NCBI RefSeq assembly: GCF_000302595.1
Contig: NZ_JH947126.1
Span: 156,454 to 220,453 of the forward strand
Direction of reading: 5' to 3'
Length of the DNA: 64,000 bases
Origin: Pedobacter arcticus A12
GTDB lineage: Bacteria; Bacteroidota; Bacteroidia; Sphingobacteriales; Sphingobacteriaceae
Shown: positions 11,487 through 59,728 of the stretch, piece by piece
How the letters are laid out: every line of letters begins with the position of its first letter
Position numbering within the stretch: the stretch's first letter is position 1
The notes under the pieces: generated by a model
What the model saw: only the letters and a program-made list of their open reading frames with translations
What the model was told of the DNA's origin: nothing
The model's database searches: none
Program-made: the position numbers and the translations under genes

Positions 11487-11556
11487 AAAATATTGATATT
11501 TAGAATTATAATATAACCCAAATATAAAATATTTTTTAAATTAACTACAGTGCAAA

Positions 11557-12344: not shown

Positions 12345-12439
12345 CGTCATGTTGAACGATAGTGAAACATCACACAAACAGGTGTTACGTATTATACGCA
12401 AACCTCGCCAGTGAGATGTCTCGTATCCTCGACATGGCG
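12345..12439. repeat. Dispersed imperfect inverted repeat, copy A
   Basis: Left arm 12345-12371 begins CGTCATGTTGAACGATAG; right arm 12413-12439 reads, in reverse complement, CGCCATGTCGAGGATACG. The arms match imperfectly over about 27 nt around a 40-nt centre. Related half-copies lie at 26348-26374 and 30880-30910. This is the main content of the 323-nt gap between the peroxiredoxin and SlyD-like genes; 12190-12344 otherwise shows nothing. Confidence 0.7.
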
Positions 12440-12462
12440 GGGTGGTAGAAAACATTCGAAAC

Positions 12463-12492
12463 AAAAAAGCACCTTCCGTTTGGGAAGATGCT
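12463..12492 (-). terminator. Terminator of the SlyD-like gene
   Basis: A 10-bp stem (12468-12477 with 12483-12492, one G-U pair) and a 5-nt loop, followed on the minus strand by six T. It lies about 20 nt past the stop of the SlyD-like gene. Confidence 0.8.
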
Positions 12493-12512
12493 CTTCGTAA
12501 GATCAAATAATA

Positions 12513-13007
12513 TTAGTGCTGGTGACCACCTTCACCATGTACGTGACCGTGATCCAACTCTTCTTGAGTTGCTGGTCTAACATCTTGAATAGTTCCGTTA
12601 AAATGTAATATGTGGCCGGCCATTGGGTGATTCAAATCAACCAAAACAGCATCTTCTGCAATAGAGACTACCCTACCTTGGAATTGTCCACCGTTATTAT
12701 CCTGTAAAGGTAAAATAGCGCCAACTTCTGGTAAAGGTTGATCCCCAAACATATCTTTTGGAAGTGGAGCAACAGCTTTTTCATCATATTCACCGTAACC
12801 ATCTGCAGCACTTAATGTAAATGCATAATTATCGCCAGTTGATAAACCTGTTAAATGCTCTTCAAACTTTGGCAACATCATCCCTACTCCGTAAAGAAAT
12901 ACCAATGGATTTTCTGTTGTTGCACTTTCTACGTGTTTTTTTTCTTCGTTTTCTGTTACGTGTAAATCATAGGTTAATGATACTACGTGGTTATTATCAA
13001 TCTTCAT
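12513..13007 (-). CDS. FKBP-type peptidyl-prolyl isomerase, SlyD-like, His-rich tail
   Basis: A 164-aa soluble protein of the SlyD group, in which an FKBP domain carries an insert-in-flap chaperone domain. Visible landmarks are the N-terminal VVSLTYDLHV, the PLVFLYGVGMMLPKFEEHL block (about 34-52) and the MAGHILHFNGTI return strand (about 130-141). The C-terminal GHVHGEGGHQH is a short metal-binding tail like that of SlyD. Expected roles are proline isomerisation, folding help and possibly nickel handling. No signal peptide, so cytosolic. Confidence 0.9.
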   Translation of the reverse strand: MKIDNNHVVSLTYDLHVTENEEKKHVESATTENPLVFLYGVGMMLPKFEEHLTGLSTGDNYAFTLSAADGYGEYDEKAVAPLPKDMFGDQPLPEVGAILPLQDNNGGQFQGRVVSIAEDAVLVDLNHPMAGHILHFNGTIQDVRPATQEELDHGHVHGEGGHQH

Positions 13008-13028
13008 GTGTTGGTAATTGCGAAACCC

Positions 13029-15044: not shown

Positions 15045-15123
15045 GTTTTTGTTTTTTGTAAAGATGGGTTTTCTAGAATTGCGAATTGTCACGATATTTT
15101 GAAAAAAATACTAAATTTAGTTT

Positions 15124-16221
15124 ATGAAAATTAGCCATATCCACATTTATCGCTTTAGTATTCCTATGGAGCCATTCGCCATTGCAACAGGAACCATGGA
15201 CTTTGCCCAAAACCTTTTCATTAGAGTTTACACAAACGAAGGTATAATTGGAGTCGGTGAATCATCTGCTTTCCCAATGATTGTGGGTGAAACGCAAGAG
15301 ACCATGTTAAAAATGGCTCAGGATTTCGCAAAGCTTTGGATAGGCAAAGATCCATTGGCTATTGATAAACGATTAGCAGAATTGAATGCATTTACGGCTT
15401 TCAACTCGACTTGTAAAAGTGCTTTTGATATGGCTTTGTATGATATCGCTGCGAAACATGCAAAGCTTCCGCTGTATCAGTTTTTAGGAGGCGAGATAAG
15501 AAAAGCATTAACGGATATTACTGTAGGGATTGATGAACCCGAAATAATGGCAACAAAAGCCAAAGATTTTGTAAAGAATGGAGCCACTATTATTAAAATA
15601 AAGCTAGGTAAAAACTTAACAGATGATTTAAAACGAGTAGCTAAAATTAGAGAAGTTATTGGTGATAAAACGCGACTGCGGTTAGACGCAAACCAAGGCT
15701 GGACCTTTGAGGAAGCTTTATTAGGTTTAAACGAGCTCAATAAATATAAGATAGATTTTTGCGAGCAACCTATGCGTACATGGTTCGATGATGAATTACC
15801 GGAGCTGGTTAAACGTTCGCCCATTAAAATTATGGCTGACGAAAGTTGTTATAATCACCACGACGCCAGACGTTTGATTAACAATAATGCCTGCGATATG
15901 ATAAATATTAAATTGGCAAAATCTGGTGGGATAAACGAGGCATTAAAAATCTACCACACAGCTACGATGAATAATATCCCCTGTATGATTGGCGGAATGC
16001 TGGAAAGTCGTTTAGCGGCAACAGCTTGTTTACATTTTGCTTTTGCCTGCAAAAAAATCAATCATTTTGATTTAGACACTAGCTTACTTGGACATTTGGT
16101 TGACCCGATAGTTGGTGGTTTGGGCTATCATAATTACGAAATGACTTTGCCGCAAACAACTGGAATTGGTGCAGATGTGAATGAAGATTATTTAAAAAAT
16201 TGTGAAATGTTTGTTATATAA
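15124..16221 (+). CDS. Dipeptide (L-Ala-D/L-Glu type) epimerase, enolase superfamily
   Basis: A 365-aa enolase-superfamily enzyme. The general-base lysine motif KIK is at 158-160, the Mg ligands are Asp188 (LRLDANQGW), Glu214 (CEQP) and Asp239 (ADES), and the second lysine is Lys263 (NIKLAKSGG). This spacing matches the dipeptide-epimerase branch of the muconate-lactonising group, which helps recycle murein peptides. Exact dipeptide specificity cannot be read from sequence. It is divergent from the DUF255 gene, with a 79-nt shared promoter region. Confidence 0.88.
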   Translation: MKISHIHIYRFSIPMEPFAIATGTMDFAQNLFIRVYTNEGIIGVGESSAFPMIVGETQETMLKMAQDFAKLWIGKDPLAIDKRLAELNAFTAFNSTCKSAFDMALYDIAAKHAKLPLYQFLGGEIRKALTDITVGIDEPEIMATKAKDFVKNGATIIKIKLGKNLTDDLKRVAKIREVIGDKTRLRLDANQGWTFEEALLGLNELNKYKIDFCEQPMRTWFDDELPELVKRSPIKIMADESCYNHHDARRLINNNACDMINIKLAKSGGINEALKIYHTATMNNIPCMIGGMLESRLAATACLHFAFACKKINHFDLDTSLLGHLVDPIVGGLGYHNYEMTLPQTTGIGADVNEDYLKNCEMFVI

Positions 16222-16222
16222 G

Positions 16223-16486
16223 TCAAACAATCGTAGAAACTATAAAACTTTCGGCTAGTCGCTTTATTTCTGGAATGTCAAGCTTTGTGTCTGCATTGGG
16301 ATATTGTTCTATAAAAGCTTCTTTAATTTTTAAAACACCATTGGTTAATTTAATGATGATCGTATCCTCGGTATGGTAATAATGCTCAATATAGCCACCC
16401 ATATCTTTTTGGAGCTTACGCACTTCGGACAGTAAACTTAATAGCCTAGTTTTCTCTGAATCGTTATGTTGATTTGGGGTTAACAT
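16223..16486 (-). CDS. Small hypothetical protein (87 aa)
   Basis: Starting from ATG at 16486 the frame encodes 87 residues, MLTPNQHNDSEKTRLL onward, with an amphipathic LLSEVRKLQKDMGGYIEHYY helix and a mixed C-terminal half. No signal peptide, membrane helix or known motif is seen. An extension to 16555 would add an unlikely Cys/aromatic-rich N-terminus. It is convergent with the dipeptide epimerase and divergent from the metal-efflux operon. Function unknown. Confidence 0.55.
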   Translation of the reverse strand: MLTPNQHNDSEKTRLLSLLSEVRKLQKDMGGYIEHYYHTEDTIIIKLTNGVLKIKEAFIEQYPNADTKLDIPEIKRLAESFIVSTIV

Positions 16487-16623
16487 AGTAAATTGACTAA
16501 TTTTTAAACTGTTCCAATATAAACAAAAACATTTTTGAACCAATACAGTAGACATTAAACATCATAAAGTAACATTTTTATTGTTTTAGGCTTTTACATA
16601 AAAATATTTTAATTTTGTGAAGA

Positions 16624-17067
16624 ATGAAAAAAATTAAGTCAGGTATAGTTTTGTTGCTTTCTATGATGGTATTTATCACCTCATCTGGGATGGCTGTGAA
16701 CTTACACTATTGCGCTGGCGATTTACAAAACGTTTCATTTAACCAAAACAACCACAATTGTGGTATGGAATCTACTACTGCAAAAGAAAATTGCGACCTA
16801 GATTCAAAAACCACCTCTATTAAAGAAATAGACAACTGCTGCCAAAACACGCATATCGTTGCAAAAACGGATGCCAAAATTTCTGTCGCAAAAGAAAAAG
16901 ACCAATCGCTATTTGCTAAAACCTTTACTTTTATCAACCATTATTTCATCAGTCTGTTTAATAATAACCAAGACTGTGAAAAAGAAAAAGACGAGGGTGC
17001 AGAAATATCTTTATTCCCTTTATTAAAGCAAGGTTTGTACATCTTGCTACAGCAATTCCGTAATTAG
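16624..17067 (+). CDS. HYC_CC_PP family secreted protein, metal-efflux operon leader gene
   Basis: A 147-aa protein with a signal peptide and the family's defining motifs: HYC at 28-30, a CC pair at 72-73, plus Cys46 and Cys57. The C-terminus FPLLKQGLYILLQQFRN contains the final conserved proline region. This Bacteroidota family is typically found beside heavy-metal efflux genes; the Cys/His content suggests periplasmic metal binding, which is inference. It is the first gene of a plus-strand block running to 24627. Confidence 0.78.
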   Translation: MKKIKSGIVLLLSMMVFITSSGMAVNLHYCAGDLQNVSFNQNNHNCGMESTTAKENCDLDSKTTSIKEIDNCCQNTHIVAKTDAKISVAKEKDQSLFAKTFTFINHYFISLFNNNQDCEKEKDEGAEISLFPLLKQGLYILLQQFRN

Positions 17068-17096
17068 AATTTCCCTTTCTTCCCTTTAAATTCTAA

Positions 17097-17127
17097 AGCT
17101 TGACTATTTCAAGCTAATCCATTTTTT
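17097..17127 (+). terminator. Hairpin between HYC_CC_PP gene and pump gene (possible attenuator)
   Basis: Arms AGCTTGA (17097-17103) and TCAAGCT (17109-17115) form a 7-bp stem with a 5-nt loop, followed after 5 nt by T-rich sequence. It could partly terminate transcription before the efflux pump genes. The spacing to the T tract is longer than ideal. Confidence 0.35.
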
Positions 17128-17144
17128 ATTTATTTTTTTTATTG

Positions 17145-18428
17145 ATGATTGAGAAACTGATTTCATTATCACTTCGAAATAGATTTCTGGTGCTTTTAGT
17201 AGCAGTTGTGATTTTTGGATTTGGCGTTTTTGCCGTACAAACCAATAAAATCGATGCTATTCCAGATTTATCCGAAAACCAAGTGATTGTTTTCACCGAG
17301 TGGGAAGGCAGAAGCCCCCAGATTATTGAAGACCAAATTACCTATCCGTTAGTTACCGGTTTGCAGGGCATACCGAAAGTGAAATACGTAAGGGCAAACT
17401 CTATGTTTGGGATGAGCTTTATCTACGTGATTTTTAAAGATAATGTTGACCCTTACTGGGCTCGCTCTCGCGTTTTGGAGAAACTGAGTACGGTCAACAA
17501 TACGTTGCCAACAGGTGTCGCTCCTACTTTAGGTCCAGACGGAACAGGCGTTGGACATATCCTATGGTACACTTTAGATACCCAAGGGATGGATTTGGGT
17601 GAACAGCGGGCTTTACAAGATTGGTACGTAAAGTTTGCCTTGCAAAATGTGGATGGCGTAAGTGAAATTGCTTCTTTCGGTGGTTTCCAAAAGCAATATC
17701 AAATTAGCATTGACCCTAATAAACTGAGCTATTTCAAACTTGGAATCAACCAAGTGATGGATGCTGTAAACAACAATAACAACGAAGCTGGAGGGCGAAA
17801 ATTCGAGCTCAGCGATATGGGTTATATCATTAAAACATCGGGTTACCTCAAATCTATCCAAGAAATCGAAAATCTGGCCATTCAAACCAACCAGTCCATC
17901 CCTATTAAAATAAAAGACATCGCCAATGTGCAAATGGTGGGCGATAGCCGTTTAGGGATTTTTGATTTAAACGGCGAAGGTGAAGCCGTGGGCGGAATTG
18001 TGGTGATGCGTTCTGGAGAAAATGCTGACGAGGTCATCACGCGGGTAAAAGCTAAAATGACAGAAGTTGCAAAGGGCTTGCCCGACGGCGTAAAATTCAA
18101 CATCGTTTATGACAGAAGCGGATTGATTAAGGAAGCGATCAGCAGTGTACGGAATACACTCATTGAGGAAATGATTGTGGTTTCTTTGATAGTTTTTCTT
18201 TTTCTGTTACACTGGCGAAGTGCCATCAGCATCATTATCCAAATTCCAATTACCATTGCGGCGAGCTTTATCCTACTGAATGCTTTCGATATCAGTTCAA
18301 ATATTATGTCTTTAACAGGGATTGCGCTAGCTATTGGGGTAATTGTGGATAATGGCATCATCATGTCGGAGAACGCTTATAAACAGTTGTCTGTTCGTCA
18401 GGCAGAATTAAACTCTAAATCGGAATAA
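17145..18428 (+). CDS. cusA: CusA/CzcA-type RND efflux pump, N-terminal half (split gene)
   Basis: A 427-aa product equal to the first 40% of a heavy-metal RND transporter: TM1 (LVLLVAVVIFGFGVFAV), first periplasmic porter region with TEWEGRSPQIIEDQITYPL, then TM2-TM4 ending with GIALAIGVIVDNGIIMSENAY, which holds the TM4 acidic proton-relay residue. It stops at TAA 18426-18428 in the cytosolic loop before the next helix, and the remainder of the pump starts 1 nt later in another frame. ATG at 17145 is preferred over TTG at 17142. Together the two halves total 1071 aa, a full-length pump, so this is either a frameshifted gene or a real fission with coupled translation. Confidence 0.85.
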   Translation: MIEKLISLSLRNRFLVLLVAVVIFGFGVFAVQTNKIDAIPDLSENQVIVFTEWEGRSPQIIEDQITYPLVTGLQGIPKVKYVRANSMFGMSFIYVIFKDNVDPYWARSRVLEKLSTVNNTLPTGVAPTLGPDGTGVGHILWYTLDTQGMDLGEQRALQDWYVKFALQNVDGVSEIASFGGFQKQYQISIDPNKLSYFKLGINQVMDAVNNNNNEAGGRKFELSDMGYIIKTSGYLKSIQEIENLAIQTNQSIPIKIKDIANVQMVGDSRLGIFDLNGEGEAVGGIVVMRSGENADEVITRVKAKMTEVAKGLPDGVKFNIVYDRSGLIKEAISSVRNTLIEEMIVVSLIVFLFLLHWRSAISIIIQIPITIAASFILLNAFDISSNIMSLTGIALAIGVIVDNGIIMSENAYKQLSVRQAELNSKSE

Positions 18429-18429
18429 C

Positions 18430-20364
18430 ATGAAGAATATATTTAAGAAAAGTTCCGAAAAGGATTTCGTTAAACTCGATAATCAGGAACGTTTAACCAT
18501 TATTGAAAGAGCTTGTAAGCAGGTTTCTCGCGGGGTTTTCTTCTCTACGGTTATCATAATCGCTTCGTTTTTGCCTGTGTTTTTATTAACCGGACAAGAA
18601 GGAAAACTCTTTCATCCCTTAGCTTACACTAAAACTTTTATTTTAATAGTAGATGCCTTATTGGTGATTACGCTGGCACCTGTTTTAATTTCCTTTTTTA
18701 TGAAAGGGAATTTCAGACCCGACGATCATAATCCCATCAACAGGTTTTTAGAGCGTATTTACGAGCCTACCATCAAAGCCTGTTTAAAGCACCGAAAAAC
18801 TACCCTCGGGGTAAATATTGTGGCTTTGCTCATCAGCATTCCATTGTTGTTTAGCTTAGGAAGAGAGTTTATGCCTCCACTGGATGAACAATCTATCCTA
18901 TTTATGCCGGTGACATTGCCAGATGTTTCCAACTCGGAGATCAAAAGAATTTTGCAGGTACAGGATAAAATCATCAAATCAACGCCAGAAGTTGAACAAG
19001 TGCTAGGAAAAGCTGGAAGGGCAAATACTGCCACGGACAACTCTCCGATCAGCATGATTGAAACCATCATTCAGCTGAAGCCAAAAAGCCAATGGCGTGA
19101 GGGAATGACTAAGAAAAAGATTGTAGACGAGCTGGATGCCAAACTGCAAATCCCTGGTGTGGTTAACGGATGGACGCAACCTATCATCAACCGTATCAAC
19201 ATGCTTTCTACCGGAATCCGTACCGATGTAGGTATTAAAGTTTACGGTCAGGATTTAACAGAAATCGCTAAAGTTGAAGAGCAGATCAAAGAAAAACTAA
19301 CGGGAATAGATGGTATTAAAGACCTTTATGTAGAACCTGTAACCGGAGGAAAATACCTGAATGCTGACATTAACAGAGAAGCCTTAACTCGCTATGGTTT
19401 AACGGTAAAAGATATTAATGAGGTAGTAGAATCTGCCATTGGCGGAGTGCCTTTTACCAATACCATTGAAGGCAGGGAACGTTTTGGAATTTCCGTCCGT
19501 TTGGGTGAGGATTACCGAAACAGCGTTGCTAAACTAAAGCGAATTCCTATCAGTTCGCCAGATGCAGGAATTATTCCGCTTTCTGATGTAGTTGACTTTT
19601 CTTTCACTGATGGTCCGCCAATGATTACTTCAGAAAATGCTTTATTACGAGGTGCAGTGATGTTTAATGTGCGTGACCGCGATTTAGGAAGCACTGTAAG
19701 TGATGCTAGAAACCACGTTAATAAAGAACTTAAATTACCGAAAGGTTATTTTGTAGAATGGAGCGGACAATATGAAAATTTAATCCGTGGCGAGAAAACC
19801 TTGTTGCTCATTTTGCCTTTTGTGCTGGTGATTATTTTCCTAGCGCTTTACTTGGCATTCAATTCTATCCGGGAAGCATTCCTAAGCTTGGTTACCATAC
19901 CTTTTGCTTTAATTGGCGGAGCTTTATTAGTTTATTTCTATGGAGTTAACTTGTCTATCGCTGTGGCAGTCGGTTTCATTGCTTTGTTTGGAATTGCTGT
20001 TCAAACTGGTGTAGTGATGGTGATTTACCTCAATGATGCCATGCAACAATTGGTGAAAGAAAAAGGGAATAGCCGAGAAACCATCACCAAAGAAGACATT
20101 AAAGAGTATGTGATTATGGGAGCTTCTAAACGTTTGCGACCAAAAATTATGACCGTTTGTGTGGCACTATTCGGGTTAATTCCCGTTTTATGGAGCACTG
20201 GCGTTGGGAGTGATGTGATGGTTCCCATCGTTTTACCGATGATTGGTGGCGTTTTAACCTCATCCACACATATTTTATTAGTTACCCCGCTTATCTTTTT
20301 AATGACCAAAGAATATGAGCTTAAAAAATTTGGAAAAATGGAGGTGTTAGATGCTGTACATTAA
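18430..20364 (+). CDS. cusA: CusA/CzcA-type RND efflux pump, C-terminal half (split gene)
   Basis: A 644-aa product beginning in a hydrophilic cytosolic loop (MKNIFKKSSEKDFVKLDNQE) and continuing RACKQVSRGVFFSTVIIIAS into the next membrane helix. It contains FLPVFLLTGQEGKLFHPLA, the second periplasmic region and the last helix bundle, with GVGSDVMVPIVLPMIGG near the end, all typical of Cu/Ag or Co/Zn/Cd RND pumps. It lies in the +1 frame relative to the first half, separated by TAACATG. The frame is open back to 18412, so a single-base change near there would restore one protein. Confidence 0.85.
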   Translation: MKNIFKKSSEKDFVKLDNQERLTIIERACKQVSRGVFFSTVIIIASFLPVFLLTGQEGKLFHPLAYTKTFILIVDALLVITLAPVLISFFMKGNFRPDDHNPINRFLERIYEPTIKACLKHRKTTLGVNIVALLISIPLLFSLGREFMPPLDEQSILFMPVTLPDVSNSEIKRILQVQDKIIKSTPEVEQVLGKAGRANTATDNSPISMIETIIQLKPKSQWREGMTKKKIVDELDAKLQIPGVVNGWTQPIINRINMLSTGIRTDVGIKVYGQDLTEIAKVEEQIKEKLTGIDGIKDLYVEPVTGGKYLNADINREALTRYGLTVKDINEVVESAIGGVPFTNTIEGRERFGISVRLGEDYRNSVAKLKRIPISSPDAGIIPLSDVVDFSFTDGPPMITSENALLRGAVMFNVRDRDLGSTVSDARNHVNKELKLPKGYFVEWSGQYENLIRGEKTLLLILPFVLVIIFLALYLAFNSIREAFLSLVTIPFALIGGALLVYFYGVNLSIAVAVGFIALFGIAVQTGVVMVIYLNDAMQQLVKEKGNSRETITKEDIKEYVIMGASKRLRPKIMTVCVALFGLIPVLWSTGVGSDVMVPIVLPMIGGVLTSSTHILLVTPLIFLMTKEYELKKFGKMEVLDAVH

Positions 20365-49217: not shown

Positions 49218-49248
49218 CAAAAAAAATTTCAAAACATATTAAATATTG

Positions 49249-51588
49249 ATGAATCTTAAACACCTATTCTTTTACCTCTTTATAGCTAGCTTTATTATCA
49301 ATATTACAACAGCAAATGCTCAAAAAAACAACATTTTAAATGGAGTTATCAAAGATGCAACAACGGGAGAAACCTTAATTGGCGCATCTGTTCAGGTAAA
49401 TGGCACCACTTCTTTAGGTACTGTTACCAATGCTTATGGCTATTATTCGTTAGCCATTCCTGCTGGTATTTACGAAGTAATTTACAGTTATGTAGGCTAT
49501 CAAACAATCAAAAAAAACATCAGTTTTTCTGGAGATTTAACGCAGAATATAGCACTTTTTTCCTCAAATCAACTAAACGAGGTCATTGTGAACGCCGAAA
49601 AGCGAAACAATAATGTTGAAAATCCTTTAATGGGCGTACAAAAACTGAACGTTAAAGAAATAAACAATATACCCGTATTATTTGGCGAAAGAGATATTTT
49701 AAAAACGCTACAATTGTTACCCGGTATAAAATCCGCCGGCGAAGGCAATAGCGGTTTTTACGTTAGAGGCGGTTCTACAGACCACAACCTTATATTGTTA
49801 GACGAAGCGCCGGTTTATAACGCCTCTCACCTATTGGGTTTTTTCTCAACCTTTAATTCTGATGCGATAAAAGACGTTACGGTTTATAAAGGTGGTATGC
49901 CAGCACAATACGGTGGTAGATTAGCGTCTGTTTTAGATATTAAGATGAACGATGGCAACAAGAAAGATTACACAATTGAAGGTGGAATTGGCTTAATTGC
50001 ATCAAGGTTGAAAGTTGAAGGACCCATTGAAAAAGATAAGAGTTCTTTTATGATTAGTGGTCGAAGAACGTATGCGGATAGTTTCCTAGCTTTCTCCTCA
50101 GACAGTAGCGTTAAGGGTAGTAGACTTTATTTTTACGACTTAAATGCCAAGGTTAACTTTATCTTAGACAGTAAAAACATCCTTTACCTTTCTGGCTATT
50201 TTGGCAGAGACAAACTAGGCTTAAAAGACAGCTTTGGCTTTGATTGGGGCAATACTACAGGAACAATAAGGTTAAATCATTTATTTTCTAATCGCCTGTT
50301 TTCCAATACTTCTTTAATTTACAGTAACTACAACTATTTAATTCAGAGTCTTTTGGAGGATAATGATTTTAGTGTAAAATCGTCTATCAAAGATTTTAAC
50401 CTGAAACAGGATTTCCAGTTTACGGCAAACAATGCCCATGAGATAAAATTTGGTTTAAACGCAATCCACCATACCATTACACCCGGTAAAATAACAGCCA
50501 GCCAAACTTCAAGCGTTAACGAAAGTGAAATTGAGAACAGAAAAGGCTTAGAACTGGCAGTTTATTTTTCTGACGAATATAAGGTGAGCGAAAAACTTAA
50601 TGTAGCTTACGGCGCTAGATTTAGTAATTATGCTGCTTTAGGAGCAGGAACATTTAAAACCTACGATACAAACGGAGACATCACCGGCTCTGAAACCTAT
50701 AAATCTGGCGAGCTGGTTAAAAACTATTTCAATCTAGAACCACGCCTATCTGCAGCTTATCAGCTTTCGGAAAGCAAATCTTTGAAAGCATCATTTACCC
50801 GCAATACCCAGAACTTACACTTAATGTCTAATTCAACAGCAACATCGCCTACAGATTTATACATTATGAACAGCAATAACGTAAAACCCGAAATTGCTGA
50901 TCAGTTTGCGCTGGGCTATTTTAGCAATTTCCGAAATGATAGCTACGAGTTTTCTACCGAGATCTATTATAAGGATATGAAAAACCAAATTGAGTACCGA
51001 AACGGTACTGATTTGCGTGGAAACCAAAATGTAGAAGGTGATTTGTTATTTGGCGACGGCAGAGCTTACGGAATTGAACTGTTTTTAAAGAAACGTTTCG
51101 GCGATTTTAACGGTTGGATTGGTTATACTTTAGCAAAAACAGAAAGACAGTTTGCGCAGATCAATGATGGCAAATGGTTTAATGCAAAACAGGACCGTAC
51201 GCATGATTTATCAATAGTTGGTATTTATAAAGCCAGTAAACGCTGGACGCTTTCTTCCACTTTTGTTTACAGCACCGGAACTGCAGTTACTTACCCTAGC
51301 GGAAAGTATCAGCTTAACGGAGAAACTGTTTTTTATTATTCAGAAAAAAACGGATACCGCACTCCTGCTTATCACCGTTTAGATTTATCGGCAACTTTAG
51401 AACCTAAGCTTGTACCAAATAGGAAATACCAATCAAGCTGGTCGTTCGGTATTTATAATGCATACAACAGAAAGAACCCTTTTTCTATTGATTTTAAAGA
51501 CAATCCAGACAATCCTACAAAAACACAAGCGGTACAAACTTCGTTATTTGGCATTATTCCATCAGTTACCTGGAATTTTAAATTTTAA
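49249..51588 (+). CDS. TonB-dependent receptor with carboxypeptidase-regulatory-like domain
   Basis: A 779-aa outer-membrane receptor: signal peptide (ending TTANAQ), carboxypeptidase-regulatory-like domain (LNGVIKDATTGETLIGASV, about residues 30-48), plug domain with GFYVRGGSTDHNLILLDEAPV (partly cited) and a 22-strand-type barrel ending in VTWNFKF with a C-terminal Phe. ATG 49249 is chosen over TTG 49246. The next gene is a DUF4249 lipoprotein, a pairing seen often in Bacteroidota. No SusD is present, so it is not a Sus-type pair. Substrate unknown. Confidence 0.9.
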   Translation: MNLKHLFFYLFIASFIINITTANAQKNNILNGVIKDATTGETLIGASVQVNGTTSLGTVTNAYGYYSLAIPAGIYEVIYSYVGYQTIKKNISFSGDLTQNIALFSSNQLNEVIVNAEKRNNNVENPLMGVQKLNVKEINNIPVLFGERDILKTLQLLPGIKSAGEGNSGFYVRGGSTDHNLILLDEAPVYNASHLLGFFSTFNSDAIKDVTVYKGGMPAQYGGRLASVLDIKMNDGNKKDYTIEGGIGLIASRLKVEGPIEKDKSSFMISGRRTYADSFLAFSSDSSVKGSRLYFYDLNAKVNFILDSKNILYLSGYFGRDKLGLKDSFGFDWGNTTGTIRLNHLFSNRLFSNTSLIYSNYNYLIQSLLEDNDFSVKSSIKDFNLKQDFQFTANNAHEIKFGLNAIHHTITPGKITASQTSSVNESEIENRKGLELAVYFSDEYKVSEKLNVAYGARFSNYAALGAGTFKTYDTNGDITGSETYKSGELVKNYFNLEPRLSAAYQLSESKSLKASFTRNTQNLHLMSNSTATSPTDLYIMNSNNVKPEIADQFALGYFSNFRNDSYEFSTEIYYKDMKNQIEYRNGTDLRGNQNVEGDLLFGDGRAYGIELFLKKRFGDFNGWIGYTLAKTERQFAQINDGKWFNAKQDRTHDLSIVGIYKASKRWTLSSTFVYSTGTAVTYPSGKYQLNGETVFYYSEKNGYRTPAYHRLDLSATLEPKLVPNRKYQSSWSFGIYNAYNRKNPFSIDFKDNPDNPTKTQAVQTSLFGIIPSVTWNFKF

Positions 51589-51591
51589 AAC

Positions 51592-52389
51592 ATGAGAGCA
51601 TTTTACATTATATTTTTTGCCATTACTACATCGGTGTTTTTTAGTGCCTGCGAAAAGGTGATTGATCTAGATTTAAAGAACACAAAACCTGTTATTGTAA
51701 TTGAGGCCAACGTAAATGATAATTTTTCGCAACAAGTTGTTAAAGTAACACAAACCAAGCCTTTTACAGAGGATAACACCATAGTTCCCGTTACTGATGC
51801 TGTAATTACTTTAAAGGATTTAACAGATAACAGAACTTACAATTTTACCCTGACAGATAATGAAGGAACCTACCTTTCAACTAACTTCCGCGGAAAACCC
51901 GGAAACACCTACGAACTGAATGTAAGTGCGAATAACCAGGTTTACATTGCAAAATCAACAATGCCAAAAAAAGTATTGTTAGATTCTATATCTGTGGCAG
52001 AGGTTACGTTTTTTGGAGAAACAAATAAATATATCAAGGTTCATTATGCTGATCCAATTCAATATGAGAACCAGTACCGTTACCTTTTAACCGTTAACCA
52101 AAAGCCATCGAAAGGTTATTTTGTAGATTCGGACCGGTTTAATAATGGAAAATATGTAAGCAACACCCTATTTGATAGTGATAACGACTTAAAATCTGGA
52201 GATGAGATCAAAGTAGAGTCTCAGTGTATTGATATGAACATCTATCGCTACTTCTTTGCCATTTCGCAGATTAGCGGAAACGGTGGCCCGCCTACTGCAC
52301 CTTCAAATCCCGATTCAAATTTCAATAATGGAGCTTTGGGGTATTTTAATGCGCACACTACGGAGGTTAAAATGGCAACGATACAGTAG
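51592..52389 (+). CDS. DUF4249 lipoprotein, partner of the TonB receptor
   Basis: A 265-aa lipoprotein with signal peptide ending in FFSAC and then EKVIDLDLKNTKPVIVIEAN, the typical DUF4249 opening of a beta-sandwich domain. It starts 3 nt after the receptor stop, so the two are translated together. It presumably sits on the cell surface or in the outer membrane as a substrate-binding partner; that role is inferred from the pairing. Confidence 0.85.
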   Translation: MRAFYIIFFAITTSVFFSACEKVIDLDLKNTKPVIVIEANVNDNFSQQVVKVTQTKPFTEDNTIVPVTDAVITLKDLTDNRTYNFTLTDNEGTYLSTNFRGKPGNTYELNVSANNQVYIAKSTMPKKVLLDSISVAEVTFFGETNKYIKVHYADPIQYENQYRYLLTVNQKPSKGYFVDSDRFNNGKYVSNTLFDSDNDLKSGDEIKVESQCIDMNIYRYFFAISQISGNGGPPTAPSNPDSNFNNGALGYFNAHTTEVKMATIQ

Positions 52390-52592: not shown

Positions 52593-52868
52593 ATGAGTTT
52601 TCTAAGTAAAAAAATTATTCCTTCCGAAAATGCTGTTGTTCAAGAAATGGGTGAAGATATTGTTATACTTAATCTAAAAACAGAACATTTTTATGAACTT
52701 AAAGAAGTTGGAAAGAGAATCTGGGAATTATTATCTGAAAATCATAGTTATACTTTAACATTTGAAGCGATAAAAGGGGAGTATGAGGTTTCATCTGAAC
52801 AGCTTCATACCGATATGGAGCGTATAATAAATGGACTAATAAAAGCGGAACTTATCAAAATAAATTAA
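52593..52868 (+). CDS. Lasso-peptide B1 protein, PqqD-like RiPP recognition element
   Basis: A 91-aa protein of the PqqD fold. IVILNLKTEHFYELKEVGKR (residues about 24-43) is the characteristic strand-turn-strand with the leader-binding groove, and IWELLSE starts the first helix. In lasso-peptide systems this protein (B1) binds the precursor leader and hands it to the B2 protease. It is the first gene of the operon, and its stop overlaps the B2 start (TAATG). Confidence 0.88.
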   Translation: MSFLSKKIIPSENAVVQEMGEDIVILNLKTEHFYELKEVGKRIWELLSENHSYTLTFEAIKGEYEVSSEQLHTDMERIINGLIKAELIKIN

Positions 52869-53311
52869 TGTATTGTAGTAATGAGCTAAATAAGGTTAAT
52901 AAATGTTTAAGATCTCAAGATAATTTAGTTTTTTGGACAAGAGTATTCACTATATTTACCGAGGGCATTCTTCTTGCAACCAGCTTAAAAACCACCGAAA
53001 AACTATTGTCCGTGTTTAAAAAACACACCTTAACACTAGACCCAGAAGAAAAAATAATTATTGTTGATAGATATTTCACTATTATTAGCGAAATTAACCA
53101 GCAATCTTACCTAAAAGGAAGATGCCTTTCACAGTCTTTAATATTACGTTTACTTTTAAACAGAAAAGGAATCTTATCTCATCTAAAGATAGGAATGAGA
53201 CAATTAAACGGAAAGTTGGATGTTCATGCTTGGCTAGAAATTGATAATAAACCAATCAATGAGCACATTTCTGTAACCAAAAATTATCTCAAAATAATAA
53301 ATAAGAGCTAG
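52868..53311 (+). CDS. Lasso-peptide B2 protein, transglutaminase-fold leader peptidase
   Basis: A 147-aa protein. The catalytic triad of the B2 family is visible: Cys86 in GRCLSQSLILRLLL, His120 in VHAWLE, and a likely Asp126. Normal size for a stand-alone B2. It cleaves the leader from the precursor just before macrocycle closure. It is coupled to B1 upstream and followed 18 nt later by the cyclase gene. Confidence 0.88.
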   Translation: MYCSNELNKVNKCLRSQDNLVFWTRVFTIFTEGILLATSLKTTEKLLSVFKKHTLTLDPEEKIIIVDRYFTIISEINQQSYLKGRCLSQSLILRLLLNRKGILSHLKIGMRQLNGKLDVHAWLEIDNKPINEHISVTKNYLKIINKS

Positions 53312-53329
53312 GCCAAATTTTCAATTTTA

Positions 53330-55150
53330 ATGAGCGGATTCGTAGGAATTATAACTTCTAAATTAGAGCAGTTTGATATAGATATCTTAGACATTGCAAC
53401 AAGCTCTATGTGCCAAACTTGTGATGATTATTCGGGTTCGTGGCGAAGCGAGAAAGCTGATTTACGTTTTGCGTGGTTAAAAACCTTCGATGATACTGAT
53501 GATGAGCATCTTCCATTTACAATGGATGAAAATATCCGAATTATTGGAGATGTGCGACTAGATAATCGTATCAAACTTATAGGGGCGCTAAAGTTTATAT
53601 TTGGAGATGAGATCAGTAATTCAACTCCAGATTCCTACTTGGTCCTATATGCGTATAAGCAATGGGGAGAGCGTTGCCTAGACCACATTTCAGGAGATTA
53701 TGCATTTGCAATTTGGAATGAGAAAGAAGATTATCTTTTCTGCGCCCGAGATCATTTTGGTCTTGTGCCATTTTATTACACCCAACTCAACGATAAGTTT
53801 CTATTCACAAATTTTTACACATCCTTAAAAGATGTACCGAATCTTATTTCAGAGCTCGATGACGATGTTGTAAAGTCTTATTTATCCGCTGGATTGAACA
53901 ATTATTTTGATCAAACTATTTATAAAGACCTAAAAAAACTCCCACCAGCTCACCAACTTATTTATAAAAATGGAGTTGCTCATGTAAGTCGCTATTGGGA
54001 TGTACCAAATCAGATTAGCCCTATTCGTTACAAAACCACGAAGGAATACGTGGAGCACTTCTATCAATTATTTGAGCAATCTATAAATGATCGTACCCGA
54101 AACAGTAAGGTTGCGTCTTCTTTAAGTGGAGGTATGGATAGCTCTGCAATAACCGCAGTGACGAAAAAAGTTTTAAATGAGTGTTATGGTGCTAACCATG
54201 AGTTAAAATGCTTTAATATTGTTTATAAATATCTTGTGAACGAGAAAGAAGGTTTTTTTGGAGAAACGATAGCGAAACATTTAGATATACCGATAAACCA
54301 ATACGTAGCAGAGGATTACCTTAAAAAAATTTTAAAACCACTTGTCTCTTGGCTTCCCGAACCAATTGGGGTCCCGCATGCAACCCCTGAATCTCAGATA
54401 CTCTCAGACGTAGAAACATTTTCGCGAACTTATTTAACTGGGTTCGGTGGAGATCCTTTATTTGAATATGGAGAATCGGCTAAACAAAAGCTTAAAGAGC
54501 AAGGCTACAAAGTTCAGTCATATAAAGACGAGATTTTATTCTACCGCGTTTTCGGTCGCTTTTCTGGAACAAGCCTTCGGCATAAATTGATAGGTTTAAT
54601 TAAATCAAAACCTAAAAAAAACTTTAAAAAGTCAATCAACAACCACAAATATTCTCTTTTCAAAAATGTTTTTTCTTTCTCCAAAAAAACCGAGAATCTT
54701 GATTCTTTGCGTACTTACTTTGGAATGGTTAAAAATCCGTTTTGGTCCTCGCTATTTGAGATGTCTTATCCAGGATTTAATGGATATAAAGTTAAAGTAC
54801 GACAACCCTTCTTTTCTTTAGATTTATTTCTTTTTATCATTGCATTACCTCCACATCTGCTTTATAAAAAATCATTGCTACGCATGGCAATGACGCCTTA
54901 TCTCCCAACCGCAGTTATTACCCGACCAAAAACGCTTATTTTTAAAAATGCTCATTTTGAAAATTTACAAAATCATAATATAGCTGAAGTACTTAAAAAC
55001 AGTATTTCTAAAAAAAATAAAGTTTTCATTGGAAATGCAGATATGAAATCTTTAATAGAAGAAGCTACTAAATCTGATACATTAGCTAATTCAGATAGCG
55101 ACCTACTTATTATTTTTACAATCATGTCTTGGAACAATTGTGTTTTATAA
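53330..55150 (+). CDS. Lasso-peptide C protein, asparagine-synthetase-like macrolactam cyclase
   Basis: A 606-aa protein with an N-terminal class-II glutamine amidotransferase-like domain (1-200) that starts MSG instead of MCG, so the catalytic Cys2 is missing, and a C-terminal adenylating domain with the PP-loop SLSGGMDSSAI (Ser266-Ser272 region). This pairing is the hallmark of lasso cyclases, which activate an Asp/Glu side chain by adenylation and join it to the new N-terminus. The end overlaps the upstream region of the precursor gene frame, but the precursor ATG lies 33 nt after the stop. Confidence 0.9.
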   Translation: MSGFVGIITSKLEQFDIDILDIATSSMCQTCDDYSGSWRSEKADLRFAWLKTFDDTDDEHLPFTMDENIRIIGDVRLDNRIKLIGALKFIFGDEISNSTPDSYLVLYAYKQWGERCLDHISGDYAFAIWNEKEDYLFCARDHFGLVPFYYTQLNDKFLFTNFYTSLKDVPNLISELDDDVVKSYLSAGLNNYFDQTIYKDLKKLPPAHQLIYKNGVAHVSRYWDVPNQISPIRYKTTKEYVEHFYQLFEQSINDRTRNSKVASSLSGGMDSSAITAVTKKVLNECYGANHELKCFNIVYKYLVNEKEGFFGETIAKHLDIPINQYVAEDYLKKILKPLVSWLPEPIGVPHATPESQILSDVETFSRTYLTGFGGDPLFEYGESAKQKLKEQGYKVQSYKDEILFYRVFGRFSGTSLRHKLIGLIKSKPKKNFKKSINNHKYSLFKNVFSFSKKTENLDSLRTYFGMVKNPFWSSLFEMSYPGFNGYKVKVRQPFFSLDLFLFIIALPPHLLYKKSLLRMAMTPYLPTAVITRPKTLIFKNAHFENLQNHNIAEVLKNSISKKNKVFIGNADMKSLIEEATKSDTLANSDSDLLIIFTIMSWNNCVL

Positions 55151-55182
55151 AAAAAACGTTACTTTCGTTAAAAAACGACGAT

Positions 55183-55335
55183 ATGAACAAAGAAGAAACT
55201 ACTGGAAACTCTAAAAAAAACTACGCTGCACCAGAACTGAAGGAATTGGGGAAAATTGGAGAAATTACGAATACCACAAGTGCAGACAGCACTCATACTC
55301 AAGATGGTGGTGGTGGCCCAAATTACTATTCATAA
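55183..55335 (+). CDS. Lasso-peptide-type precursor peptide (50 aa)
   Basis: The likely ATG at 55183 gives a 50-residue peptide. The leader has the B1-recognition motif Tyr14-x-x-Pro17-x-Leu19-x-x-Leu22-Gly23 (YAAPELKELG), followed by KIGEIT. The C-terminal part is Thr/Ser-rich, then QDGGGGPNYYS. A ring-closing acid is likely Asp41: ring Ser33-Asp41 (nine residues, Thr31 at -2) or Ala34-Asp41 (eight residues, Thr32 at -2), leaving the tail GGGGPNYYS. The last residue, Ser50, suits phosphorylation by the HPr-kinase-like protein encoded next. An in-frame extension to 55129 overlaps the cyclase gene and is unlikely. Confidence 0.8.
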   Translation: MNKEETTGNSKKNYAAPELKELGKIGEITNTTSADSTHTQDGGGGPNYYS

Positions 55336-55349
55336 TTTGAAGTTATTGT

Positions 55350-56285
55350 GTGAAGTTTAAAATAGAATTCCACAATCTAACAGATTTTGATTTTTTGCTA
55401 CTGAAAGAAAAATTAGCATTTAAGCCTCATGAACAAAAATTTTCGCCAAATATATTTGGCGAAAATTTTTATACAGGAAGTAGTTTTGAATATGGTAATT
55501 GCTATCTGTTTGAGTATCGTGATGAACAAAAACCGATGGTTAGCTTCATCATTACTTCTGGTGGCAAAAATGTTTTCTGTAATTATCAGATTGAAGTCTC
55601 CCCTCAAACAGTTAGCTCGTTAATTAAGGGTAACATCAAAAAGTTTTGTTTGCAAGAACAGGGGTATTTTTGCTTGCATGCTTCGGCAATGCAGATAAAC
55701 GAAAAAATAATATTGTTTATGGGTAAAAAAGGTGCTGGAAAATCAACGCTAGCAAGTTTTTTTCACTTACAGGGACACGATATCTGGTGCGACGATTATT
55801 CTTTGCTACAGCAAGAAAAGAACTGCTTTCTTTCTTATCAAGGTGAAACCTCACTCAAAATCAATCCAGATATTTTATCTGCTTTAAATATTCCTAAGCA
55901 AAAAGTAAAAAATGTATTTGATCTTTCTGATGGTTTTAAAAAAAGCAATCAATATAAAACCTCTAGTTCTAAGGTCTACTTCCGCAATGATAAACCTGTT
56001 GAGAATAGCAACCCAAAACAGGTTGCAGCCGTATTTTTTTTACAGCAAAGAAGTTTTGATCCAGCGCTTTTAATTGAACCGATGAAGAAATCCGAAGCAC
56101 TTTCAACCTTAATGGAGGAAATACTATTGCCTGGTTTTAATTCAAAAGAATACCTAAAAACTTATTTCCAATCATCATTAAAACTTTTGGAACATGTACC
56201 TTGTTACAAAATACATGCTTCAAACGAAATTACCCGAATTAGTGAAGTATACCATTCTGTGTTTGAAACTTTAAACTTTTCTTAA
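55350..56285 (+). CDS. HPr-kinase-like protein, putative lasso-peptide C-terminal serine kinase
   Basis: A 311-aa protein whose C-terminal half matches the HPr kinase fold: P-loop GKKGAGKST (125-133), His110 in FCLHASA, and Asp148-Asp149 in WCDDYS, the positions used for catalysis in HPr kinase. In paeninodin-type lasso clusters such kinases phosphorylate the C-terminal Ser of the precursor, and this precursor ends in Ser. The start is GTG at 55350, 14 nt after the precursor stop; an in-frame TGA blocks any earlier start. There is no HPr nearby, so a carbon-control role is unlikely. Confidence 0.85.
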   Translation: MKFKIEFHNLTDFDFLLLKEKLAFKPHEQKFSPNIFGENFYTGSSFEYGNCYLFEYRDEQKPMVSFIITSGGKNVFCNYQIEVSPQTVSSLIKGNIKKFCLQEQGYFCLHASAMQINEKIILFMGKKGAGKSTLASFFHLQGHDIWCDDYSLLQQEKNCFLSYQGETSLKINPDILSALNIPKQKVKNVFDLSDGFKKSNQYKTSSSKVYFRNDKPVENSNPKQVAAVFFLQQRSFDPALLIEPMKKSEALSTLMEEILLPGFNSKEYLKTYFQSSLKLLEHVPCYKIHASNEITRISEVYHSVFETLNFS

Positions 56286-56287
56286 AC

Positions 56288-58363
56288 ATGTTGCAAGCTG
56301 CTGATGAATATCCGCTACTAGGTGCGGCAAAGGATTTCTTTTGTACGCTCCCCGAAACAATTGTTTCCGCTCCCCAGCTAGATTTGCTTAAAAAGGCTGC
56401 TGCTTTTTTTCCTCCTATTATCCGCTTTGCATTAGAGTGCCGCTTGAATAAGCAAGATCAGGTCGATCTGCAGTTTTGTATTAGAAGAGACGAGGACGAC
56501 TTGGCATCAATTTTAAGCTGGTTTGAGAGAAAACTTTCTGGAAATGGAGAAGATCAACTACTTCTTTCTTTTTTAAAAGAGTGGGCAGATAAGAACTCTT
56601 TTTATCACAAAAGTATACCTGAGATATTTTTAGAACTTGATGTTAATTCACCTAATTTAAATGTACCCCTTTTATTTTTTGAGCTAGAGACCAGCCTTAC
56701 CAGCACTCAAAGAAAAGATTATTCTTTATTTATCTTAAATAATACGTTAGGTAAAAACAAACCTTATTATAAGTTATTAGAGACGATTATAGAAGCCTGT
56801 CCAGATCCTGCATACCTAGCATACTTAGGAATTCTATTTTCTAGAAATAATGACGTTTTACGTGTAAATATAAAAAAATTACCATACTGCTCTGTAGTTC
56901 CTTTTTTACAGAAAACTGGTTATAAGTGGCTTAGTAAAGAGCTCGAGTATTGGCTGTCGTTAATATATACTTACGCAGACCGTATAACTTTATGTATCGA
57001 TATTGGCTCAGAAATTTATCCAAAAATTGGTTTTGAATGTTTTTGGAATGGGCAACCCAGCACCGAAACTTATTGGAAGGATTTTATTGAAAAGCTGAAA
57101 CTTGACAGTATACTTGAAAAAGACAAAATAAAAACAATACTAGAATGGAACGAAGATGTTTTTCCGGGGAAGATTGAGAATTGGCCAAGTCATCTTTGGC
57201 TAGATTCATTAGGTAAATCCGAAAGTGAATTTACCTACTTAAAAAAGTGGATTTCTCATTTAAAACTATCTTACCAGCCAGAGAATGAAATTGAAATAAA
57301 GGCTTATCTCGCTTATGAAAGTTTATGGATGTCTCAGAATACGATTAATTTAGATAGCTTACAAAAGCAAGAAAATCAAATTTACGATGAGCCTCAAGAA
57401 CTAGAAAAAGTAATCGACAAAGGAATCGACTTTCTTTTATCAAACCAAACTCAAGCTGGCTGGTGGAAAGATTTTCACCTAGAGCCAGGAACTAGCGATG
57501 AATGGGTAACAGCTTATGTTGCTTATTACCTTTCTAATTTAAAAACTCAAAAAACTCAAAAATCACTAGAAAAAGCTTGGGATATATTAAAGACGAGATA
57601 CCGCATGAATGAAGGTTGGGGTTATAATGCCTTAACACGAGGAGACGCGGATAGCACCACATGGGTTTTGCACTTTACTAACTCCGAGAACTTAATTGGC
57701 AACCTTGATATATGTTTTTTAAGTATAGTGGAAAAACATATTTCAGAGGATGGCGGTATAGTTACATACGCAAAGCGTCGCTCTTTAGAAAAAGAAGCAT
57801 TAGTTGCCACTAGTGTACTTTTCAACGGCTGGCAAATACCCCATAATTGCGTAACCGCAGCATATGCACTAACGGGAAAACAACATGCTATTGATTACCT
57901 AATTAATCAACAAGATAAAGACGGTTTTTGGTATGGTTACTGGTGGGATGGTTACGAGTATGCGACAGGGCTCGCTACAGAAGCACTTTATAGTAAAAAC
58001 GCAGAAAAATATAAGAAATCAATTGAAAGTGCTATAAACTGGGCAACGCATGAGGCAAATAGAATATTAAATGCATCCTTTCCTAACACTTTCAAACTTG
58101 CTTTTCTATTGCGGATACTATTATGCGATAATTCCGAAAAAGAAAATTCTATACTGAAGCAGAAAATAACTACAGTACTAATCAATTCACAAGAACAGCA
58201 AGGATGTTGGAAGTCTGATGCGATATTGAGATCTCCAAATTCTAACGATCGGAATCATGAAAACGGTAAAAATATACCAGTCTTTAAGGATCAGATGAAA
58301 AATTTTACTACAGTTACAGTTTTAGATGCGTTGAACAAATATGCGCTATCTCTTATTAAATAA
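56288..58363 (+). CDS. Lasso-cluster protein: unknown N-terminal domain plus squalene-cyclase-like alpha/alpha toroid
   Basis: A 691-aa soluble protein starting 2 nt after the kinase stop. Residues 1-370 are an unrecognised helical domain with a conserved-looking DIGSEIYPKIGFECFW stretch (238-253). Residues about 375-691 form terpene-cyclase/prenyltransferase-type toroid repeats with QW-like motifs: QTQAGWW (387-393), QQDKDGFW (541-548) and QEQQGCW (635-641), plus TSDEWVTAYVAYYL (402-415). GDADSTTW at 452-459 aligns with the DxDDT proton-donor motif of squalene-hopene cyclases, keeping Asp453 and Asp455 but with Ser456 for the third Asp. It may modify or prenylate the peptide, or act on a lipid partner; the substrate is unknown. 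The 3' end overlaps the opposite-strand gene by 18 nt. Confidence 0.8.
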   Translation: MLQAADEYPLLGAAKDFFCTLPETIVSAPQLDLLKKAAAFFPPIIRFALECRLNKQDQVDLQFCIRRDEDDLASILSWFERKLSGNGEDQLLLSFLKEWADKNSFYHKSIPEIFLELDVNSPNLNVPLLFFELETSLTSTQRKDYSLFILNNTLGKNKPYYKLLETIIEACPDPAYLAYLGILFSRNNDVLRVNIKKLPYCSVVPFLQKTGYKWLSKELEYWLSLIYTYADRITLCIDIGSEIYPKIGFECFWNGQPSTETYWKDFIEKLKLDSILEKDKIKTILEWNEDVFPGKIENWPSHLWLDSLGKSESEFTYLKKWISHLKLSYQPENEIEIKAYLAYESLWMSQNTINLDSLQKQENQIYDEPQELEKVIDKGIDFLLSNQTQAGWWKDFHLEPGTSDEWVTAYVAYYLSNLKTQKTQKSLEKAWDILKTRYRMNEGWGYNALTRGDADSTTWVLHFTNSENLIGNLDICFLSIVEKHISEDGGIVTYAKRRSLEKEALVATSVLFNGWQIPHNCVTAAYALTGKQHAIDYLINQQDKDGFWYGYWWDGYEYATGLATEALYSKNAEKYKKSIESAINWATHEANRILNASFPNTFKLAFLLRILLCDNSEKENSILKQKITTVLINSQEQQGCWKSDAILRSPNSNDRNHENGKNIPVFKDQMKNFTTVTVLDALNKYALSLIK

Positions 58364-59521
58364 AAAAGAATAAAAGAGTTTAAAAGACTTTGTTGGAATA
58401 ATTAACGGGATAGCCCAAGCTGGTTTATCCGTAAGTGAAAGATCATTGGTATTTGGCACAAGTAACCAGGAGTAAGCTTTAACCTTGAATTTTATCCGCT
58501 CTGTAAAATCTAGTTTTAGACCGATAAGTTTTATTTTCTTAAACAAATTTTCCCGGTCATTTTTTGCTTTCATAAAAGAAAACAGATGATATTTGATAGC
58601 TGGTTTCTCAGATAATGGTATTTTGATACCAACTATTTCTTCTAACGCATTAACACCTGACCAAAGAAAAGGCGAAAATTTATACCGTTTAAAACCTGCT
58701 GCTATCTCCTCCCAGTTTAGATTCTTACCAGATTTATCAATAATACATGCTAAATCAATTAAATACTTAAACTTCAGTAAAGGTTCTCTGATTAAGTGAT
58801 GAGAAGCGATACACAGAAAATCATAAGTTGGTGATAAGGCCATACTTATTGTTCCATTACTATCGTGAGTTAAATGTTTGGCTAAGAAATCATATTCATA
58901 AAATTTACCAAAATAATTTTCCACTAGTTTCCATTGTAATTCTACAGAACAGTTTATGCCCAATTTATCTTTTGGAGACTTAAGCGATAGCTCACGCTGA
59001 TACTTTTTCAAAAAACCAATTTGATGTTCTGAGACATCGTAAGTTGATATAAAATCGTTTGATAAAAGGCATTCTCTCAATTTACTCAAATCATCCTTTT
59101 TGATCAGGAAGTCTATATCAGCGCTTTCCCTCATAGATAATGATCTATAATAACGGTTGGCAAACCTTACACCTTTATAATTAATTACTCTTATTCCAAG
59201 ATTACTAAATTGTTGACTTAAATGGTTAAGTAATTGTAATTGATATTTACCGAACAATATAATACCTACGGTATCTTTTTTCAATGCATTAAAAACTGAT
59301 TGGTCTATCGAGATGTTTGAGGTTATTACAATTTCATAGACAAAACCTCTGATATCATTTAATTGAACCAGTTTATAGAACAACAACCAGTTTATCTCTT
59401 CCTTTTCTAAGAAATCGTTCACTTCTCCCACGCTTTGCTTATCAAAATATAAGCGTGTTATAAGAATTATCAACGTTTCCTCATTTCCATATATCGTTTT
59501 GAGGTGACCTATACTAAGCAT
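58346..59521 (-). CDS. Nucleotidyltransferase-family protein (NTP_transf_5 type)
   Basis: A 391-aa protein on the strand opposite to the lasso operon. The INYKGVRF segment (113-120, Lys116-Gly117) and the YRSLSMRESADIDFLI segment (residues 125-140) match the uncharacterised NTP_transf_5 family, with the Asp pair Asp135 and Asp137 where the family consensus has GDIDLLV; here Gly is Ala. ASHHLIREPLLKFKYLIDLACII is the second family block (cited in part). Such proteins are repeatedly found beside lasso-peptide and related RiPP clusters, with unknown function. It is 12 nt downstream of the Nif11-like gene. Confidence 0.82.
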   Translation of the reverse strand: MLSIGHLKTIYGNEETLIILITRLYFDKQSVGEVNDFLEKEEINWLLFYKLVQLNDIRGFVYEIVITSNISIDQSVFNALKKDTVGIILFGKYQLQLLNHLSQQFSNLGIRVINYKGVRFANRYYRSLSMRESADIDFLIKKDDLSKLRECLLSNDFISTYDVSEHQIGFLKKYQRELSLKSPKDKLGINCSVELQWKLVENYFGKFYEYDFLAKHLTHDSNGTISMALSPTYDFLCIASHHLIREPLLKFKYLIDLACIIDKSGKNLNWEEIAAGFKRYKFSPFLWSGVNALEEIVGIKIPLSEKPAIKYHLFSFMKAKNDRENLFKKIKLIGLKLDFTERIKFKVKAYSWLLVPNTNDLSLTDKPAWAIPLIIPTKSFKLFYSFLFNKR

Positions 59522-59533
59522 ATCTTACCAAGT

Positions 59534-59728
59534 CTAAAACTTATTTGAGTGTTTAACCCATCGCATCTTCCAATCTATTTGAAAAGCTGCTTCAAGATCA
59601 TTCTCAGAACAAGGAAGACCTTTTGTATCGGATAGTATAACTAAATCTTCCATAGTAGAAATTTTCGAAGCCTTGTTTTTCGATTCCCTAATATCTTTAA
59701 TAACTTTTAATGCATTCTGAATTGACAT
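59534..59728 (-). CDS. Small Nif11-like protein
   Basis: A 64-aa protein, MSIQNALKVIKDIRESKN followed by MEDLVILSDTKGLPCSENDLEAAFQ, that matches the Nif11 domain pattern: an N-terminal SxxNAL helix, a central LxxLxxxxG turn and an ELxxAF-like helix. The domain is the usual leader of nitrile-hydratase/Nif11-type RiPP precursors. Here only about 11 residues (WKMRWVKHSNK) follow the domain and no double-Gly cleavage site is present, so it could be a short precursor or a regulatory/adaptor protein. It is co-oriented with, and 12 nt from, the nucleotidyltransferase. Confidence 0.72.
   Translation of the reverse strand: MSIQNALKVIKDIRESKNKASKISTMEDLVILSDTKGLPCSENDLEAAFQIDWKMRWVKHSNKF

Follow-up and report, generated by a model that had tools for sequence, protein, structure and literature searches.

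The locus described here raises a simple question: what does an enzyme related to terpene cyclases do in an operon that makes a lasso peptide? The gene concerned, here called PC, lies at 56288-58363 on the forward strand of the window (the whole stretch of DNA analysed, 64,000 nucleotides from Pedobacter arcticus A12), begins with ATG and encodes 691 residues. Computation provides a fold for each of its two domains, together with the conservation of a catalytic Asp, the conservation of the operon, and a link between the enzyme and a motif in the precursor peptide. From these sequence comparisons and structural models we conclude that PC is a real and conserved tailoring enzyme of the lasso pathway, whose function can be predicted.

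The genes on the forward strand are in the order B1-B2-C-A-K-PC. B1 (52593..52868) is a PqqD-like leader-recognition protein, above the cut-off for PF05402 and matching NF033536 with E=1e-14. B2 (52868..53311) is the leader peptidase, above the cut-offs of NCBIfam NF033537 and of PF13471. C (53330..55150) is the asparagine-synthetase-like lasso macrolactam synthetase, above the cut-offs for PF00733 and PF13537; its match to NF033535 has E=4e-78, yet is under the curated cut-off of that model. These three genes adjoin the gene for the 50-residue precursor peptide A (55183..55335), as is usual for a lasso cluster. K (55350..56285) is an HprK-like lasso precursor kinase (HprK_rel_A, E=5e-11), in which H110, G125, GKS130-132 and D149 are invariant in the alignment and D148 is conserved in at least 90% of sequences. 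This is the same set of residues as in the motif of the kinase BsfK (PMC10368454), and the His-Gly-GKS-Asp-Asp motif is matched by a Ser at the C-terminus of the precursor. The kinase stop codon ends at 56285, so that K and PC are only 2 bp apart. The sequence-only reading, which had placed the gene inside a lasso operon and in translational adjacency to the kinase gene, was thus right on both points.

On the opposite strand are a nucleotidyltransferase gene (NTase, NTP_transf_5; 58346..59521; PF14907, E=3e-32), which is convergent to PC, overlaps its end by 18 bp and has a conserved position in six PC loci, and s64 (59534..59728), which encodes a stand-alone Nif11-like protein of 64 residues. 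Directly upstream of the operon, at 49246-52389, there are genes for a TonB-dependent receptor and a DUF4249 lipoprotein-like protein. They were excluded from the cluster because no homologue is present in any related locus. No lasso D-type ABC transporter was found near the Bacteroidota clusters of this kind (52593-59728 of the window, and L030-L037). The cyanobacterial relatives discussed below do have an ABC transporter.

The C-terminal part of PC, residues 369-691 (57392..58360, forward strand), is, on the evidence of sequence and modelled fold, a monodomain class II terpene cyclase resembling MstE. The motif GDADSTTW, which had been likened to the DxDDT motif of such cyclases, is found exactly at residues 452-459, and QW motifs (strict or loose) begin at residues 378, 533 and 630, within a few residues of the three places previously named. 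The core Q-x2-5-G-x-W occurs four times, against 0.15 expected from shuffling the protein, and a fraction of 0.0005 of the shuffles reach four. Pfam SQHop_cyclase_C scores 37.7 bits against a cut-off of 26.1; PF00432 was not reported for PC in the Pfam search. The best match in the PDB by sequence is MstE (phmmer, E=7e-45), with 30–32% identity and with squalene-hopene cyclase far behind; a profile of the family matches MstE with E=1.5e-66. MstE also comes first when the full-length model is compared using Foldseek (6sbf; E=5e-16, TM 0.81 on target), followed by drimenyl diphosphate synthase, oxidosqualene cyclase and squalene-hopene cyclase. The weak stretch in the AlphaFold2 model of the toroid is residues 497-514.

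Asp455 (codon 57650-57652), previously suggested as proton donor, is a good candidate for the catalytic acid: it aligns with Asp109 of MstE, the residue mutated in 6sbd (D109A) and 6sbe (D109N), and lies within a D-x-D-(S/T)-T motif. Across nine fused PC proteins, drawn from two phyla, there is no variation in D453, D455, S456, T457 or W459, nor in the QW cores. Two other assignments were considered. A full-length, two-domain squalene-hopene cyclase is not indicated, TIGR01507 scoring 35.8 bits against a cut-off of 431 and the motif being DADS rather than DxDD. A kinship to the β subunit of protein farnesyl/geranylgeranyl transferases, which had been raised earlier, is not seen either: FTase-beta is absent from the PDB sequence matches and from the 50 Foldseek matches listed, and the cyclase half matches MstE and class II cyclases instead.

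MstE (PDB 6sbb-6sbg) therefore shares with this domain its fold, general-acid Asp and QW cores. It is a stand-alone enzyme, which cyclises geranylgeranyl-dihydroxybenzoate via protonation of the terminal double bond (PMC9401909), whereas the C domain of PC is fused to a second domain and encoded in a peptide operon. The substrate of MstE, a prenylated phenol acid, is chemically close to a prenylated tyrosine.

The N-terminal domain had been described as having an unknown fold. It can now be modelled. The AlphaFold model of residues 1-350 (56288..57337, forward strand), generated from 15 sequences, has a mean pLDDT of 87 and a pTM of 0.85, and consists of five beta-beta-alpha-alpha units, in other words the ten-stranded barrel of alpha-beta-beta-alpha units that defines the ABBA prenyltransferases. 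Every one of the 50 PDB matches listed by Foldseek is an ABBA prenyltransferase, with E-values from 1e-6 to 2e-4; among them are EpzP, NphB, IptA, AmbP3, FamD1, PriB, MpnD and the peptide geranyltransferase PirF. With solved ABBA enzymes the model gives moderate TM-scores (0.4–0.56), so that the relationship is a distant one despite the clear fold. Searches of the PDB by sequence (phmmer, hmmsearch) found no ABBA enzyme for this domain, giving chance SH2 matches, and no Pfam family is above cut-off over the N-terminal 370 residues. A match to DUF244 at residues 287-389 is under cut-off and spans the linker, and was taken as chance. The basic and Tyr residues R186, R192, K326, K338 and Y340 are invariant, and are no more than candidates for binding diphosphate. 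On the basis of the model, the N-terminal domain (hereafter the P domain) is an ABBA-fold prenyltransferase, predicted to be active on peptides.

If PC belongs to the lasso pathway, it should be found with lasso genes elsewhere. A collection of 84,980 genomes was scanned using a three-row alignment, which returned 14 loci. In six loci, from Pedobacter cryoconitis, P. sp. ok626, Chitinophaga varians, C. dinghuensis (two) and C. rhizosphaerae, B1-B2-C-A-K-PC recurs as an operon, together with NTase and s64 in convergent orientation; the co-occurrence with lasso genes is therefore supported. More distant PC fusions are present in lasso clusters of an alphaproteobacterial MAG (L042) and of a member of the same class as the window (L052, G643). 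The latter cluster (6517-19498) encodes a PC fusion of 675 residues, a cytochrome P450, a sulfotransferase, a kinase, a nucleotidyltransferase and a 36-residue precursor ending in Y-G-S. The P domain is found alone in the lasso clusters of two Mucilaginibacter, including M. straminoryzae, and four cyanobacteria. M. straminoryzae is, like the source of the window, a member of the Sphingobacteriaceae. In a tree, the lasso P and PC sequences form one group, apart from the lanthipeptide and Nif11 sequences, with support 93/92. Most simply, the fusion was gained once and lost in the two Mucilaginibacter.

A search of the phylum also found stand-alone P domains, in lasso and in Nif11/lanthipeptide clusters. 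Outside lasso clusters, P accompanies LanM (L028, L043 and Nostoc L056) or Nif11/NHLM genes (L022, L023), so that its homologues are mostly found in three kinds of RiPP cluster: lasso, LanM lanthipeptide and Nif11/NHLM. In L022 (1-10054) and L023 (1-9698), P alone lies downstream of transporter genes, which in L022 are of the NHLM type, and of genes for Nif11-type precursors. P-like proteins were also seen with no recognised RiPP core genes nearby, at L019 9149-11232 (a tandem pair), L054 9590-10669 and L053 7708-8778. Among the loci examined from the plasmid collection, relatives were P alone or cyclase alone, and none was fused.

This distribution bears on whether the cyclase is used at all. 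The P-only sister clusters of M. straminoryzae and the cyanobacteria have no MstE-like domain, and Mucilaginibacter RYN_333 (L034) has only a divergent toroid nearby, as might be expected if the C domain were an idle relic or a binding domain and the product were a linear prenyl lasso peptide. The complete conservation of the catalytic motif and QW cores across two phyla is unlike decay, and we regard an idle C domain as very unlikely. The L034 toroid is a separate protein of 351 residues (7056-8111, reverse strand) with the motif DADDTA, encoded alongside P alone. It was considered as a split-off C domain, but the similarity is weak; it is possibly a replacement cyclase.

The precursor peptides give an indication of the residue that may be prenylated. 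In the window, the leader (55183-55278) contains the YxxPxL motif and has Thr at position -2; the core (55279-55332) is SADSTHTQD-GGGGPNYYS, with Asp at core position 9 and Ser50 at the C-terminus. Altogether, 14 precursors were collected from the P and PC lasso loci and aligned. Lasso ring closure needs an Asp or Glu at position 7, 8 or 9 of the core. If the core is taken to start a constant number of residues after the leader Tyr, such a residue is in place in 13 of them, and in the remaining one, from L052, a ring Asp/Glu fits with a different core start.

The other common feature is at the opposite end. Thirteen of the 14 precursors end in Tyr-x-Ser, with Tyr at -3, the exception being that of L014, which has three Trps in its core and no Tyr at -3. 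As a control, kinase-lasso clusters without P were collected (20 regions, a few shorter loci, and second clusters in L038 and L040), and none of their 11 Ser-ending precursor candidates has Tyr at -3 (Fisher p=2.7e-6, a guide only, as the rows are related and not independent). Because of this association, Tyr48 (codon 55324-55326) is most likely the acceptor of the prenyl group. The motif alone is neither diagnostic nor proof, since paeninodin, which has a kinase but no known prenyltransferase, ends in Tyr-Asp-Ser.

Other acceptors must be considered. The window core also contains Tyr49 and His38, the L014 core has Trps and lacks the Tyr, and the acceptors open to ABBA prenyltransferases of RiPP pathways are Ser, Thr, His, Arg, Tyr and Trp (PMC12715784). 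Prenylation at Tyr49, His38, a Ser/Thr or the C-terminus is nevertheless unlikely, in that only the antepenultimate Tyr is common to 13 of the 14 precursors, and in several cores it is the sole aromatic or His residue. Another alternative is that PC makes a separate small meroterpenoid, from a free aromatic acid or free Tyr, and shares no more than the operon with the lasso genes. Such a product would be in keeping with the small aromatic acid used by MstE and with the small aromatics that are frequent substrates of ABBA enzymes, but the Tyr-x-Ser motif tracks P, PC has a fixed position beside precursor and kinase, and P homologues are mostly in RiPP clusters. We consider it highly improbable.

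A role for s64 is suggested by the loci in which it occurs. The copy in the window is below the PF07862 cut-off, but homologues in L014, L038, L041, L042 and L052 pass it, which identifies the family as a Nif11 domain. The protein is encoded in all 15 P and PC lasso loci, and in none of the 20 kinase-lasso regions without P (p=3e-10, again a guide only because the rows are related). A partnership with the NTase was considered and rejected, since s64 is missing from controls that have NTase and is found in P loci with no NTase nearby. The ABBA lanthipeptide prenyltransferase MppC requires a Nif11-like leader, although a leader given in trans did not support its activity (PMC12715784). The way in which s64 tracks P, and the requirement of MppC, by analogy suggest that s64 serves the P domain as a separate recognition domain, acting as a partner in trans.

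On the basis of these observations, we propose that PC is probably a bifunctional tailoring enzyme, which prenylates the lasso precursor, most likely at Tyr48, and cyclises the prenyl chain once it is attached. Its activity, the prenyl length, the acceptor residue and the order of steps are what we infer. The P domain would use a prenyl diphosphate, most likely C15-C20 by analogy with MstE and with the fused enzyme NctPC discussed below, to prenylate an aromatic side chain. The toroid of the C domain would then protonate the far end of the chain via Asp455, thereby building a polycyclic terpene on the peptide. Alongside these steps, the kinase would phosphorylate Ser50, which is the best candidate because the C-terminal Ser is the site used by such lasso kinases (PMC8498205), and the NTase would elaborate the phosphate, its likely substrate being the phosphorylated C-terminal Ser as in pseudomycoidin. 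B1, B2 and C would remove the leader and close the ring between Ser33 and Asp41; the lasso kinases studied act ahead of ring closure (PMC8498205). Of the steps offered by the sequence-only reading, peptide prenylation and cyclisation of an attached group are well supported by the two folds, while dehydration finds no support. A further speculation, which we regard as doubtful, comes from the Gly-rich tail between ring and Tyr: a terpene on the antepenultimate Tyr could be a bulky plug that locks this tail in the ring, with s64 acting in trans as a free-standing leader and delivering the precursor to the prenyltransferase.

It remains to compare PC with known systems. According to a 2026 review (PMC13290415, citing Hubrich et al., Chem 2024), NctPC combines an ABBA-fold prenyltransferase with an MstE-like cyclase in one protein, which attaches a geranylgeranyl group to Trp and subsequently cyclises that group, and ChrPC joins a cyclase to a trans-IDS-like prenyltransferase; both of these characterised relatives act on RiPP peptides, with Trp as the acceptor. 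Because these enzymes are published, the step is not wholly unprecedented, as had been proposed. Among the papers searched, in which the work of Hubrich et al. is represented by the review, none describes a lasso pathway with the PC architecture. As far as the review's description of NctPC goes, PC has the same architecture, with an ABBA P domain and an MstE-like C domain in a single RiPP maturase. It differs in that NctPC uses Trp, which is absent from the core in the window and from the remaining PC-linked cores that were found, the residue they share being Tyr; and the pathway is of the lasso type and includes a kinase, a nucleotidyltransferase and a Nif11-like protein encoded on its own.

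Proteins of the ChrPC type, seen in L015, L017, L018, L020 and L021, likewise have a C-terminal MstE-like cyclase fused to a prenyltransferase, but their N-terminal fold is unrelated to that of PC, being polyprenyl-synthetase-like with DDxxD-like motifs. Further genes for RiPP maturation are present in most of these loci. In L017, L018, L020 and L021 the gene adjoins one for a PqqD/M50-like protein, the L018 copy of which resembles the daptide intramembrane protease; radical SAM/SPASM maturases are nearby in L018 and L021, and L018 also has a P450-like gene.

MppC (PMC12715784) and the cyanobactin F family (PirF, PagF) use an ABBA barrel on RiPP precursors, as is predicted for the P domain, but have no cyclase domain; MppC depends on a Nif11 leader in cis, while in the window a separate gene encodes the Nif11-like protein, and the precursor has a leader of the lasso YxxPxL type. 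Prenylation of lasso peptides as such has already been reported (PMC12715784). Paeninodin and pseudomycoidin (PMC8498205) share with this operon the lasso genes and an HprK-like kinase acting on a C-terminal Ser, and pseudomycoidin also a nucleotidyltransferase; a prenyltransferase, a cyclase and a Nif11-like protein, all present in the window operon, are not reported for them.

What appears to be new is thus a conserved, lasso-dedicated branch of the fused prenyltransferase-cyclases. To the Trp known as acceptor of the fused peptide enzymes it would add a predicted Tyr, and the putative Nif11-like partner in trans leads to a testable question, namely how such an enzyme recognises a substrate whose leader is not of the Nif11 type. 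The combination of PC, kinase, Nif11-like protein and Y-x-S precursor would provide a handle for finding further examples in genomes. Lasso peptides and terpenes are two large classes of natural product, and if PC does build a terpene on a lasso peptide, it would join both in one molecule.
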